Assembly: GCA_030608925.1 (NCBI GenBank)
Contig: JAUWDF010000008.1
Span: 1 to 11,687, forward strand
Direction of reading: 5' to 3'
From: Candidatus Bathyarchaeota archaeon
GTDB taxonomy: Archaea > Thermoproteota > Bathyarchaeia > Bathyarchaeales > SOJC01
Length of the DNA stretch: 11,687 bases
Position numbers and translations under genes: made by a program. Numbering within the stretch: position 1 is the stretch's first letter; every line of letters starts with the position of its first letter. Under the pieces are notes generated by a model. It saw only the letters and a program-made list of their open reading frames with translations, did no database searches and had not been told where the DNA came from. This document shows positions 3,367 through 7,403 of this stretch, in pieces.

Positions 3367-4860
3367 ATGGCTGGACGATTCCTCGGTTTATTCAAACCCG
3401 TTGCCCGATTCTTACCTGAAGCCACGCCTCCAAAAAGACGAGTTAGCTTCAACCAGAAGATACTATGGACTGCTCTAGCCCTCATCATTTATTTGATTAT
3501 GGCTGAAGTACCATTGTATGGATTACCTTCAGGCGAATCAGGCTTTGAGATGAGCTATATCAGAGTCATATTTGCCTCCAACCGCGGAACCCTGCTCGAG
3601 CTCGGTATTGGACCCATTGTTACTGCAGGTCTAATCCTCCAACTTCTAGCTGGCTCAGGAATGATCGGAGTGGACATGAGCAATCCTGAGGATAGAGGTC
3701 TCTTCACAACAGCCAGCAAATTCTTCTCAATTCTACTAACTGGTGTACAAGCATTTGCTTACGTCATTGGGGGAGTCTATGGAGCTCTTCCGACACCTGT
3801 GGGTATTATAATATTTCTCCAGCTACTTTTTGCAGGCATAATAATTATGTTATTAGACGAAATGGTGCAAAAGGGGTGGGGAATAGGAAGCGGAATTAGC
3901 CTCTTCATTATGGCTGGAGTAGCTCAGAGAATAATGTGGGATAGTTTCGCCTTGACCCCCGGACTAGCTGATGGAAAAAGCTACGGAATATTTCCCGCTT
4001 TGGCTCAAACTATCGGATTCGGTCAGCCCGTTTTCTCCACCGCTCTGGAATACGTTCCCTTCAACGCGACATCTGGCGCGTTAGCCCACTTCATCCCAGC
4101 TGTGGACAACGCCTTCATACGACCTCAAAATTTGCCTTCGCTGCTTGGATTCTTTACGACTATCGTGGTGTTTCTGGTCGTGATCTATGTGGAGGGTGTG
4201 AGAGTCGAGCTTCCTGTTTCCCATGCTGATTACAGAGGTTACCGTGGAAGATATCCTATCAAGTTACTCTACGTCTCAAATCTACCAGTAATTTTCGCCT
4301 CTGCACTTTTTGCCAACGTATACTTCTTCTCTCAGATAATATGGAGCAATTTCAATCAAGCCAACGCTAACTTCTTTCTAAATTTATTAGGCACATATGC
4401 CTGGGTGGGAAATCAACCACAACCAACTGGTGGTCTAGTATACTACGTAATGGCGCCCCGAAGCATTCTAGATGTCGCCTTGAATCCCATGAGAGGGATA
4501 GTTTTCGCACTGATCCTCATAGGATTCTGCATAATCTTCTCAATAACATGGCTGGAGGTGGGCGGACTTGGTCCAGCCACAGTTGCTAAACAATTGGTGG
4601 ATTCCGGCATGCACATACCAGGCTATCGAAGGTCAACCAAACCAATTGAGACAGTACTGAAAAGGTATATTCCTGTGGTGACAATCCTTGGAGGAATCAC
4701 AGTTGGAACGATAGCAGCCCTCGCAGACTTCTTTGGCGTTTTCGGGACAGGTATGGGCGTGTTACTGTCTGTGGGCATAATCTATCAATATTATCAGCAG
4801 CTAATGCAAGAACGCGTTGCAGAAATGTACCCCGCATTCAGACGCCTCTTCGGCGGCTGA
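3367..4860 (+). CDS. secY: Protein translocase subunit SecY
   Basis: Channel-forming subunit of the Sec translocon (Sec61-alpha homologue), through which proteins cross or enter the cytoplasmic membrane. The 497-residue sequence has about ten hydrophobic segments. The first (about 31-48) is followed by the plug/second-helix region with LLELGIGPIVTAGLILQLLA. The cytosolic loop around residue 288 has the conserved YRGYRGRYPIKLLYVSNLP, involved in ribosome and SecA-type partner binding. The C terminus, MQERVAEMYPAFRRLFG, is typical of archaeal SecY. A purine-rich GGGAAAGG about six bases before the ATG fits a ribosome-binding site. The expected next gene, adk, is represented only by apparent remnants. 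Confidence 0.97.
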   Translation: MAGRFLGLFKPVARFLPEATPPKRRVSFNQKILWTALALIIYLIMAEVPLYGLPSGESGFEMSYIRVIFASNRGTLLELGIGPIVTAGLILQLLAGSGMIGVDMSNPEDRGLFTTASKFFSILLTGVQAFAYVIGGVYGALPTPVGIIIFLQLLFAGIIIMLLDEMVQKGWGIGSGISLFIMAGVAQRIMWDSFALTPGLADGKSYGIFPALAQTIGFGQPVFSTALEYVPFNATSGALAHFIPAVDNAFIRPQNLPSLLGFFTTIVVFLVVIYVEGVRVELPVSHADYRGYRGRYPIKLLYVSNLPVIFASALFANVYFFSQIIWSNFNQANANFFLNLLGTYAWVGNQPQPTGGLVYYVMAPRSILDVALNPMRGIVFALILIGFCIIFSITWLEVGGLGPATVAKQLVDSGMHIPGYRRSTKPIETVLKRYIPVVTILGGITVGTIAALADFFGVFGTGMGVLLSVGIIYQYYQQLMQERVAEMYPAFRRLFGG

Positions 4861-4951
4861 AAACCTACAGATGCAGCCCAAGCCCCATGTAAGGGACACG
4901 CAAGCGTTAGGAAATCGTTGTTGCAACATCTCGTTTTGGATAAATGCCAGT

Positions 4952-5289
4952 GATATCTGCGTGATAGTTGAAGGCGTATTTGGAATTAATATTCTGACTT
5001 CGAAAGTCTTAGCTACATACTCATCTAATTAGCCTTTACATTCAAGGTGAAAAGGTTGGAGACGTCAAGGTTTGAGAAGAAAGAACATGTTTATCCGCTT
5101 AGGAATTCAGATGAAGTGTATGATGAGCCAAGAGGGGGATCCAATAGACCCATTACAGAGTCTCCTAAGGGATTAGTATCTGGATGTTTAACCACTTTGT
5201 TTTCTAGACTAATGCTCTTCTATATTTCTGACATAGGAAACCTGTGGACTTGGATGGAGTCAGAGTTTCCAAGAGGAAATAATGTTTAG
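4952..5289 (+). pseudogene. Probable remnant of archaeal adenylate kinase (adkA)
   Basis: No intact gene lies between secY and the DUF106 gene, the slot where many archaea carry adk. Three vestiges resemble archaeal AdkA in the right order. (1) At 4955-5011, ICVIVEGVFGINILTSKVL resembles a beta-strand plus P-loop (VVVVTGxPGxGKTT), with the lysine lost. (2) At 5058-5130, KVGDV, a one-base slip, then FEKKEHVYPLRNSDEVYDEP resembles the NFGDVMFExAKExGLVxxRDEMRKLP region. (3) At 5152-5208, ITESPKGLVSGCL resembles STVKTPKGYLAGLP. From memory of AdkA, P-loop to GDV should be about 90 bases (85 here). The gap between parts 2 and 3 is about 70 bases short, suggesting a deletion. The C-terminal third is not recognisable and stops interrupt the frames. 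Gene identity is inference from residual similarity and synteny. Confidence 0.55.
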
Positions 5290-5371
5290 TTTAATCTCTT
5301 AAACGCGATTAGCTAGCTCCATTTTTGATACGTGAAAGCCACTGAATTTGCATAAGTTTCCTTGAAGAATC

Positions 5372-5379
5372 TTTTTATC
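5372..5379 (+). promoter_or_regulatory. TATA box for the DUF106 gene
   Basis: TTTTTATC lies about 45 bases before the ATG at 5421. With the usual archaeal spacing of about 26 bases, transcription would start near 5402, giving a short leader of about 19 bases. A new promoter here makes sense because the upstream adk slot has decayed and coupling to secY is interrupted by 560 bases. Confidence 0.45.
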
Positions 5380-5420
5380 AGAGCTCTATAAGATATAGAG
5401 TGCTCTTGAACTAGGCAGGT

Positions 5421-5987
5421 ATGTTTGCCGTGTTATTGATTAATCTGAGCCTGATATTCGGTCTCCTTCATGCCTTCATTTATACGGGGAGTTCTGGATT
5501 CTTGAATGTTGGAGTTGGCAAAGCCTTGTTCATCGATTGGCTATTGACCCCCCAGGCTCCGGGGGCAACCGTTTTCATCCTTTTAATTTGCGTGTTTATG
5601 ACATCTCTCACCTCGGGAGTAAACCGATTGTTCAGCAAGCCTAAACAATTAAGGGCTTGGAGAAAGGAGGTCAAAGAATGGACAGACCAATTCAGAGACG
5701 CCTCGAAAAAGAAAGATCAGAAACGCATAGACAAGTTAGGAAAGCAGAAATCTAGAATAATGAAGCTACAGCAGAAAATGTCTTGGCAGTCAATGAAAGT
5801 ATCACTGCTTTTCTTCATTCCGTTCATTATCCTGTGGCAGGTCCTGTGGGGTATCTACAGTGAACCAGTTGCCTTTCTCCCAGGATTTGGTCCACTCACA
5901 ATAATTCTATGGTATTTGGCCTGCTCCATGTTTTTCAACTCATTGTTCTCACGCGCACTAGGTGTTGGTTTGGGAGCAGCTGATTGA
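5421..5987 (+). CDS. EMC3/TMCO1-like membrane insertase (DUF106 family)
   Basis: Archaeal member of the Oxa1/YidC/EMC3/TMCO1 superfamily, thought to help insert membrane proteins next to the Sec channel. The 188-residue protein has hydrophobic segments at about 3-20, 49-66, 124-145 and 158-176. Between the second and third lies a long, charged, helical coiled-coil-like cytosolic stretch (about 71-120: KPKQLRAWRKEVKEW through KLQQKMSWQSMK), the family's hallmark arrangement, followed by FFIPFIILWQVLWGIY. Its position between secY and eL34 matches conserved archaeal synteny and supports a role in membrane insertion. The start at 5421 has only a weak ribosome-binding site (GGCAGGT, directly adjacent). 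The stop lies one base before the eL34 start. Confidence 0.88.
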   Translation: MFAVLLINLSLIFGLLHAFIYTGSSGFLNVGVGKALFIDWLLTPQAPGATVFILLICVFMTSLTSGVNRLFSKPKQLRAWRKEVKEWTDQFRDASKKKDQKRIDKLGKQKSRIMKLQQKMSWQSMKVSLLFFIPFIILWQVLWGIYSEPVAFLPGFGPLTIILWYLACSMFFNSLFSRALGVGLGAAD

Positions 5988-5988
5988 T

Positions 5989-6255
5989 ATGCCACGACCA
6001 GCACTGAGAACAAGAAGTAAGAAACGAAAATCACGTGGCTTACCTGGCGGTCAACACAAGACCATATACATGGCAGAGAAAGTTTCTGGGTCAAAATGTT
6101 CAAAGTGTGGTCGTAAGCTCACTTTTCAACCCCATTCTTCTTCAGAAATCCGCAAGCTTAACAAGACCAAAAAAAGAATCAGTCGAACACACGGCGGGCA
6201 ACTATGCCCTTCTTGTCTACGTAATTTGCTGTTGCATGAATCCAGAGTCATTTAG
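5989..6255 (+). CDS. rpl34e: Ribosomal protein eL34 (L34e), zinc-ribbon type
   Basis: Large-subunit protein of archaea and eukaryotes. The start MPRPALRTRSKKRKSRGLPG matches the archaeal family, so ATG at 5989 is preferred to an in-frame upstream start at 5962 that would overlap the preceding gene. The 88 residues include two CxxC pairs (C37/C40 in CSKCGRKL and C73/C76 in CPSC), expected to bind one zinc ion. Between them is the conserved SEIRKLNKTKKRISRTHGG. It begins one base after the DUF106 stop, so the two are likely co-translated, and cmk follows 20 bases later. Confidence 0.95.
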   Translation: MPRPALRTRSKKRKSRGLPGGQHKTIYMAEKVSGSKCSKCGRKLTFQPHSSSEIRKLNKTKKRISRTHGGQLCPSCLRNLLLHESRVI

Positions 6256-6275: not shown

Positions 6276-6866
6276 ATGAGCGTCCATTCCTCCGCTAGGA
6301 TGGTTGTTTGTTTATCTGGAATGGCTGGATGTGGCAAGAGCACTGTTGCAAAGAAGATTGCTGAAAAATATAACTTACGTTATTTCTCTGGAGGTGACGC
6401 ATTAAAGGCTATAGCTTTGGAAATGGGCTATACTCCTCTAGACAGGGGGTGGTGGGAAAGCGAGGAAGGAATGCGATTCCTCTCGGAGCGAATGCAAGAC
6501 CCTACTTTTGACAAAAAAGTAGATGAGAAATTATTGACTTGGGCAAAAGAGAGAAATGTTGTCCTGGACAGCTGGACTATGCCTTGGCTTCTAAAAGATG
6601 GGTTCAAGATATGGCTAGTAGCATCTACAGAGGAGAGGGCTCGACGAATTGCAAATCGGGATGGAATAACCTTTGAGCATGCTCTCTCGGCTCAAAAGAA
6701 GAAAGATGCACGAACCAAGACAATCTATAAGAAACTTTATGGATTCACCTTAGGTGAAGACTTTTCCCCCTTTGATGTTGTCTTAGATGTAAACTGCTTA
6801 ACTCCAGAAGAAGTTTTTCAGACGATATCCCAAGTGATAGACAATTTTCTGAAAGCTAATGAGTGA
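6276..6866 (+). CDS. cmk: Archaeal cytidylate kinase (CMP kinase)
   Basis: Transfers the gamma-phosphate of ATP to CMP/dCMP in pyrimidine nucleotide salvage and RNA turnover. The P-loop GMAGCGKST is at residues 15-23, followed by KIAEKYNLRYFSGGDALKA, with the motif ISGG/FSGGD of the archaeal enzyme. Later motifs are VVLDSWTMPWLLKDGFKIWL and the lid segment RIANRDGITFEHAL, ending with KKLYGFTLGEDFSPFDVVLD. Length 196 residues fits the family. ATG at 6276 is given. ATG at 6300 (MVVCLSGMAGCGKST) is an equally plausible start because the family often begins at that strand. Located between eL34 and eL14 as in other archaea. Confidence 0.9.
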   Translation: MSVHSSARMVVCLSGMAGCGKSTVAKKIAEKYNLRYFSGGDALKAIALEMGYTPLDRGWWESEEGMRFLSERMQDPTFDKKVDEKLLTWAKERNVVLDSWTMPWLLKDGFKIWLVASTEERARRIANRDGITFEHALSAQKKKDARTKTIYKKLYGFTLGEDFSPFDVVLDVNCLTPEEVFQTISQVIDNFLKANE

Positions 6867-7353
6867 CTATGACTTTTAAATGCGCGAATATATAATTCTA
6901 CATGTTGAACACACTGACGAGTGCCCAGCAAATTGGGTTTCAGGCAGCCTTTTCAGGCACTTGTTACATTGCTTCAGGGATTTTCACCACTACTTTTGAA
7001 CTGTCAGCGAATACTAACTACATAAGCATTTCTAGAAGCAATAGAACGCTATCAAGGTCCTACGTATGCTTCGTTTGATTCCATATTTCCGCAAAAGCAG
7101 AAATAGCCTGACTTTGAAAACTAGGTTCTCAAAGCTTTTTGTGATATTCATTATCAACCTCTCAAAGGTTACACTAATTATTTTCTAGTCTTGTTCAGAT
7201 ATAGGTATAGTTTCAGAAATCGACACATCAGAGAAATCGACTGGTCATCTGATCACATACATGTCATAGTAGGGTTCTACCTATTTTTCCAATTAGTACA
7301 TTCGAATGTGAGAATCATGAACTACTCTCAAATCTGTGCAAGAATCCAGTTAC
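6867..7353 (+). other. Unusual non-coding or decayed stretch between cmk and eL14
   Basis: In related archaea eL14 usually follows cmk closely; here about 490 bases intervene with no convincing gene. Two short open frames exist: 6880-6999 (39 codons, MREYIILHVEHTDECPANWV...), 13 bases after cmk, and 6902-7078 (58 codons, serine/threonine-rich, start MLNTLTSAQQIGFQAAFSG). Two TATA-like elements (TTTTAAAT 6874-6881, ATATATAA 6888-6895) precede a stem (AGTGCC 6920-6925 with GGCACT 6956-6961). A terminator-like hairpin with T5 ends at 7140. It may be a small RNA gene, a leaderless small protein gene or a decayed gene; I cannot decide between them. Confidence 0.4.
7112..7140 (+). terminator. Hairpin followed by T5 (terminator-like)
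   Basis: CTTTGA (7112-7117) pairs with TCAAAG (7129-7134), and after one mismatch AAC pairs with GTT around a TAG loop; TTTTT follows at 7136-7140. The form resembles an intrinsic terminator. It lies in the cmk-eL14 gap and could end either the cmk transcript or a small RNA. Archaeal termination depends mainly on the T-run, so the hairpin may be incidental. Confidence 0.35.
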
Positions 7354-7362
7354 CTATAAATA
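7354..7362 (+). promoter_or_regulatory. TATA box for eL14
   Basis: CTATAAATA is a strong archaeal TATA box. A start about 26 bases downstream (near 7384) leaves a leader of about 20 bases that contains the GGGGGA ribosome-binding site before the eL14 ATG at 7404. This suggests eL14 is transcribed separately from cmk. Confidence 0.55.
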
Positions 7363-7403
7363 TGAGATGCATGTTTTCTTTCAAAGTCTATGGGGGAATG
7401 TTA

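Follow-up and report, generated by a model that had tools for sequence, protein, structure and literature searches.

Does the segment between secY and the DUF106 gene in this archaeal ribosomal-protein operon hold an adenylate kinase gene that decayed in place, as the original prediction for the locus held, and if not, what fills it? The window, meaning the whole stretch of 11,687 nucleotides analysed here, is contig C97 of a fragmentary MAG (G000; 1,194,217 bases, 246 contigs, 64.68% complete) whose nearest SecY relatives among named records belong to Candidatus Bathyarchaeota. From secY onward the gene order is secY, DUF106/EMC3-TMCO1, L34e, cmk and L14e, and the features that matter here are the following.

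3367..4860, plus strand: secY (NF006341, 474.7 bits), the upstream border of the slot.
4861..5420, plus strand: the secY-DUF106 slot of 560 bp, the position of adkA in AdkA-bearing relatives; here apparently a lineage-specific spacer whose similarity to AdkA is not significant.
4955..4999, plus strand: the P-loop-like peptide ICVIVEGVFGINILT of the original prediction, a chance-level match.
5047..5289, plus strand: an 80-aa open reading frame with a GTG start, containing the second and third predicted peptides and having two metagenome homologues.
5071-5130, plus strand: the second peptide, FEKKEHVYPLRNSDEVYDEP.
5158-5190, plus strand: the third peptide, ESPKGLVSGCL.
5197..5214, plus strand: LFSRLM, the top AdkA-like stretch in the slot, non-significant and off the collinear position.
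5421..5987, plus strand: DUF106/EMC3-TMCO1, archaeal YidC-like (PF01956, 49.1 bits), the downstream border of the slot.
5421..5525, plus strand: about 35 additional N-terminal codons of DUF106, by which it exceeds the 155-162-aa frames seen in relatives from the window's family (f1).
5993..6255, plus strand: ribosomal protein L34e (NF003143, 64.3 bits, under the curated cut-off of 97).
6276..6866, plus strand: cmk, (d)CMP kinase (TIGR02173, 103.3 bits).

The weak ADK and AdkA profile matches in the window come from cmk. Between cmk and the L14e match, about 0.5 kb (6867-7400) is without a recognised gene.

The premise of the prediction was sound. There is no adk frame in 4861-5420, and the slot is indeed the site of adkA in many archaea, since an AdkA frame follows secY in 30 of 73 secY loci, some of them cut off at secY, and adkA lies at most about 110 nt after secY in 10 of the 11 class-level AdkA loci. 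A figure legend in one account of the secY/YidC neighbourhood places AdkA among its genes, and the same source gives DUF106/EMC3-TMCO1 (PF01956, arCOG02673) as the archaeal YidC (PMC5898192). AdkA (NF003122 / PRK04040) thus fills the post-secY slot in AdkA-bearing archaea, whereas the window has no significant trace of it and remnants are found only in relatives.

The three peptides that had been read as ordered vestiges of AdkA are present where they were placed, but they resemble AdkA no more than chance would allow. The check proposed with that reading, a frameshift-tolerant alignment of 4861-5420, was made with profiles built from AdkA proteins, with frameshifts and stops permitted and dinucleotide shuffles as the control. 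A profile of five Bathyarchaeia AdkA sequences scored 14.7 (shuffle mean 12.8; reversed profile 13.3, antisense 13.2), with 21/200 shuffles equal or better, and a profile of 10 of 15 intended sequences scored 12.6 (shuffle mean 12.5; reversed profile 14.9, antisense 13.4), with 80/200 equal or better. Similarly, when AdkA segments in gene order were chained at any spacing, the score of the slot was reached by 29-55/200 shuffles with the 5-sequence profile and by 52-164/200 with a 35-sequence profile. Within the spacer the strongest P-loop-like segment, whose end at 4984 falls inside ICVIVEGVFGINILT, is reached by 48/500 shuffles, while the scores of the second and third peptides are matched by 166/500 and 262/500 shuffled peptides with the 5-sequence profile and by 32/500 and 124/500 with the 35-sequence profile. 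The frame does change between the first and second peptides, as claimed, but the second and third share one uninterrupted 80-aa frame and so are not separate fragments. The highest-scoring match of the 5-sequence alignment, LFSRLM, was not among the three peptides; it lies where the 80-aa frame is conserved, and hhalign rates the match at E 0.01 but with a probability of 4%. An nhmmer search with an adk DNA query gave nothing in the window at E<=10 and recovered a relative's spacer at E=1.5e-8.

An AdkA pseudogene would be recognised by its place in the slot, by significant similarity and by the order of its segments, and of these the window offers the place alone. Any remains of adk in its slot are, on these alignments, indistinguishable from chance. 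Silent sites of secY are only 34% identical between the window and G010, so that a full-length adk decaying neutrally would be unrecognisable. The case is a warning that resemblance of peptides judged by eye in a slot of this kind may be due to chance, while the recognisable remnants are in relatives.

Several other identities were tried for the 560-bp segment and rejected. The only match of the spacer within G000 at E<=1e-3 is to itself, which speaks against a second copy or mobile element, and other genomes yielded only short matches (best E 0.0028). No tRNA was found in the slot, no Rfam family reached the gathering score (best sub-threshold match E 0.24), no strong RNA fold was seen (fold z 0.88 and -0.34), no tandem or inverted repeats were found flanking the segment, and no known domains were found in its 80-aa frame, its 71-aa frame or two minus-strand frames.

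Decay of adk in place is well supported by alignment in some relatives, and it is for the window, where the prediction had located it, that support fails. The 5-sequence test covered 27 of 51 measured slots, leaving aside four AdkA-bearing loci, three f5 and 11 f9 slots, G048, and five genomes (G034, G043, G049, G052 and G055) whose spacers were very short or very long or in which DUF106 was not found; the 10-sequence test and the controls covered 25 relatives, with G040 left out. The clearest cases are G017 and G036, which keep a frameshifted C-terminal third of adk in the slot (scores 33.0 and 24.9; 0/100 shuffles; nhmmer E 1.5e-8 and 5.9e-4), the G017 remnant aligning to the intact AdkA C-terminus of G078, also of family f6. 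In G028 (L161, f4) the middle of the gene is missing, and an N-terminal P-loop piece and a C-terminal AdkA piece abut in the ~100 nt that directly follow secY. A P-loop stub lies right after secY in G024 and G030 (3/100 and 0/100 shuffles with the 5-sequence profile; 1/100 and 0/100 with the 10-sequence profile), and the f1 genomes G001, G006 and G010 have short adk 3' stubs.

Remnants at no more than 1/100 shuffles were thus found in 8/26 AdkA-less spacers with the 5-sequence profile and in 8/25 with the 10-sequence profile; seven genomes reach this level with both (G017, G036, G010, G001, G006, G028 and G030), G008 with the 5-sequence profile only and G024 with the 10-sequence profile only. 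In the 25 relatives, reversed-profile and antisense controls never exceeded 14.8, a value passed by nine sense scores. The remaining spacers, 18/26 and 17/25 respectively, did not reach the 1/100 level, and no remnant signal was seen in the f1 spacers of G002, G003, G004, G007, G009, G011 and G012. In addition, a 16-nt stub core (GAAAATAGTTAAAAAC-like) lies upstream of DUF106 in 11 f1 relatives (L108-L118), with 2 to 86 nt of sequence left before it.

The original prediction also reasoned that loss of adk implies relocation or replacement of the enzyme, and for most relatives replacement is borne out by another adenylate kinase family elsewhere in the genome. Among 61 genomes (60 relatives and G000, with 13 f1 genomes included), AdkA exceeds the cut-off in five and a near-full-length bacterial-type ADK (PF00406) occurs in 50, none of them among the five AdkA carriers, which gives 5 genomes with AdkA only, 50 with ADK only, 0 with both and 6 with neither. 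Across 129 class members, all at least 90% complete except G000, the corresponding tally at E<=1e-20 for either enzyme is 19, 104, 3 and 3. This class-level count comprises 22 AdkA matches (21 over the cut-off) and 107 ADK matches (one, in G085, partial), with two unlisted genomes taken as G130 and G131 because these do not appear among the ADK positives; the 61- and 129-genome sets overlap, and the genomes are related to each other. Both kinases occur in G078 (L285) and G079 (L286), where an intact adkA directly follows secY, and in G116 (L287), whose AdkA-like gene is diverged and falls under the cut-off, with no secY found in the 5 kb examined. The genomes with neither at E<=1e-20 are G000, G042 and G108, the latter two despite being at least 90% complete.

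AdkA and ADK are therefore nearly mutually exclusive, as expected of a displacement, and it is well supported by these gene surveys that adkA has been lost from the slot while ADK sits at other loci in most class members. ADK, which belongs to a different subfamily, appears to replace AdkA in most of the Bathyarchaeia searched and probably performs the adenylate kinase job there. Three changes of the AdkA/ADK label are needed on the SecY tree, and a single archaeal class would then have exchanged an essential enzyme family repeatedly. The ADK tree was made with 40 of the 50 ADK sequences, and the ADK protein of G001 has a CxxC zinc-finger-like LID.

For the window's own genome the replacement was not recovered. 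A search of G000, 64.68% complete, gave neither an AdkA above the cut-off nor a full-length ADK; roughly a third of the genome is missing, and ADK may lie in that part. Six f1 relatives that were inspected have a presumably methyltransferase-like frame about 0.03-0.7 kb before ADK. Its counterpart in G000, 80% identical, sits on a contig of 3,070 bp, where the next frame is not ADK but a presumably FAD-oxidase-like one on the other strand.

What, then, is the 560-bp segment? The distance from the end of secY to the DUF106 core is 695 nt in the window, compared to 109-168 nt in 11 f1 relatives and 610-627 nt in four AdkA-bearing genomes. Slot length was measured in 51 of the 61 genomes; those left out are G005, G022 and G054 (no secY found), G033 (L190, secY C-terminus not found), and G014, G019, G027, G031, G039 and G050 (secY truncated by a contig end or close to one, or not retrieved). 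On a SecY tree of 49 of these 51 (two short rows dropped), the window is sister to G001 plus G010 (SH-aLRT 97), within a clade that G000 forms with ten f1 relatives, all ten of which have short slots; G006 falls outside that clade. None of ten f1 spacers (10 of the 11 f1 relatives, G012 left out) aligns with that of the window beyond shuffles (65-196/200 as good). Close relatives that lack adk here and show unrelated sequence, an outcome named beforehand as speaking against decay in place, are thus largely what f1 presents, with AdkA over the cut-off in 0/13 f1 genomes, short spacers in 11 and 0/10 spacers aligning with the window. Among themselves, 16/36 f1 spacer comparisons beat all 100 shuffles and 20/36 fail to, including every one with G004 or G011; since these spacers have diverged from each other as well, the fact that they do not align with the window carries little weight.

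Short f1 spacers, none of the ten compared aligning with the window, make it most likely that the 560 bp replaced such a spacer later and in this lineage specifically, and we consider the following history probable. A bacterial-type ADK (PF00406) at another locus would have taken over the essential reaction of AdkA, after which adkA would have been lost from the secY-DUF106 slot before f1 diversified. It would have decayed in place in several relatives, the measured f1 members keeping a short spacer, some with a stub of the adk 3' end. In the window's lineage the short spacer would later have given way to, or grown into, some 560 bp of new sequence with the 80-aa frame, and DUF106 would have gained its N-terminal hydrophobic extension. 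A single later gain in that lineage is the simplest history, with the order of events inferred from these comparisons. A strong caveat is that neutral remains of adk would go unseen at such divergence of silent sites. The slot, at 560 bp, is also about as long as adk, its 695-nt offset resembles the 610-627 nt measured in AdkA-bearing genomes, and no ADK was found in the recovered part of G000.

The same coincidences of length and position favour a contrary history, in which the 560 bp would be adkA itself, never deleted and decayed past recognition, with the 80-aa frame arising inside it and the sister lineages each deleting most of the gene. Largely saturated silent sites would hide such a gene, the 2 to 86 nt before the f1 stub cores look as if trimmed independently, and the weak LFSRLM match fits as well. 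This history is nevertheless quite unlikely, because the segment aligns no better than chance with three AdkA profiles, the f1 stub core was not found in the alignments of ten f1 spacers to the window, and several separate deletions are needed on the SecY tree versus one gain.

Later replacement leaves the nature of the new sequence to be considered. Its 80-aa frame has homologues in two metagenome proteins, P0001 (90% identity over 100% of the length) and P0002 (78% over 95%), and is open in all three sequences, with residues 59-76 invariant. As a refinement of the preferred history, a gene for an 80-aa small protein with one predicted helix may have arisen in or moved into the slot, a proposal we hold at somewhat short of an even chance. 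In its favour are the frame kept open at 78-90% identity, an AlphaFold2 model with one helix at residues 43-73, and an in-frame codon score of 0.058, the best of six frames but weak and close to the 0.049 of L34e, whose own frame the codon measure does not single out. Opposed to it are the low confidence of the model (pLDDT 64, with a low-confidence N-terminus) and substitutions that prove conservative for P0002 alone (p 0.03, against p 0.49 for P0001). Furthermore, a three-sequence profile search found no other homologue, a search of solved structures gave none (best E 1.8), and no family was found for the frame. Codon and substitution statistics are thus suggestive of a coding gene rather than firm, and translation of the frame is putative.

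The DUF106 extension, hydrophobic and on present comparisons particular to the window's lineage, is shared with metagenome protein P0003 and, in diverged form, with P0004; otherwise this downstream neighbour is an intact member of its family. These proteins also bear on an assembly artefact, that is, foreign or misjoined DNA between secY and DUF106. The fragmentation of the MAG into 246 contigs and the lack of the segment in the measured relatives would fit such an error, but independent metagenome proteins match both the 80-aa frame and the N-terminal extension of DUF106, although none was seen to join the two, and we regard an artefact as highly improbable. Two further metagenome DUF106 proteins, P0022 and P0024, start with VKIVKN, the AdkA C-terminal motif, as an in-frame fusion or an over-long gene call.

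The stub that f1 relatives retain is of interest in its own right. In nine f1 pairs the 16-nt core is identical at 10-15 of 16 positions, of which 5-6 match by construction through anchoring on GTTAA, and secY silent sites in the same pairs are 22-59% identical (G005 being without secY). As f1 secY silent sites are mostly saturated, retention of the core points to selection on DNA or RNA. One idea is that the stub could serve as a promoter, with GAAAATAGTTAAAA as a candidate element and, in that reading, a start ~25 nt downstream. Tests gave this idea no significant support. The motif occurred in 0/84 upstream regions in 400 kb of G009 under crude gene calling. Against a motif derived from 30 tRNA upstream regions of G012 (sites 3.6-13.7) the stub core scores 3.1-7.7, and the best spacer site for that motif, not always the stub, beats shuffles at 0.05 in 1/11 f1 spacers (G011, 0.044). 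A joint reading would have about 16-40 nt of the adk 3' end preserved by selection as a promoter or leader for the YidC-like gene and the operon, and overwritten in the window's genus when a small-protein gene arose there and DUF106 acquired an N-terminal helix. We think this unlikely; were it true, a single slot would record how an essential enzyme was displaced, how its remnant was exapted and how a new gene was born.

Non-orthologous displacement accompanied by decay of a gene in place is a known evolutionary pattern. Bathyarchaeia resemble it in having two enzyme families assigned to the same essential step that almost never occur together, with three genomes carrying both, and differ in the graded decay remnants inside a ribosomal-protein operon and in the 16-nt 3' stub core of the 11 f1 relatives. 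A literature search, judged by titles and abstract openings, found nothing on adkA loss or remnants in Bathyarchaeia. With graded remains of adk in the operon and a few genomes holding both enzymes, the order of events in a displacement becomes testable. Slots of other lengths occur in family f7, where the secY-DUF106 intervals of L164 (G034), L169 (G043) and L120 (G040) are 1.6 kb or 0.7 kb, and in G040 a 306-aa frame runs into DUF106.
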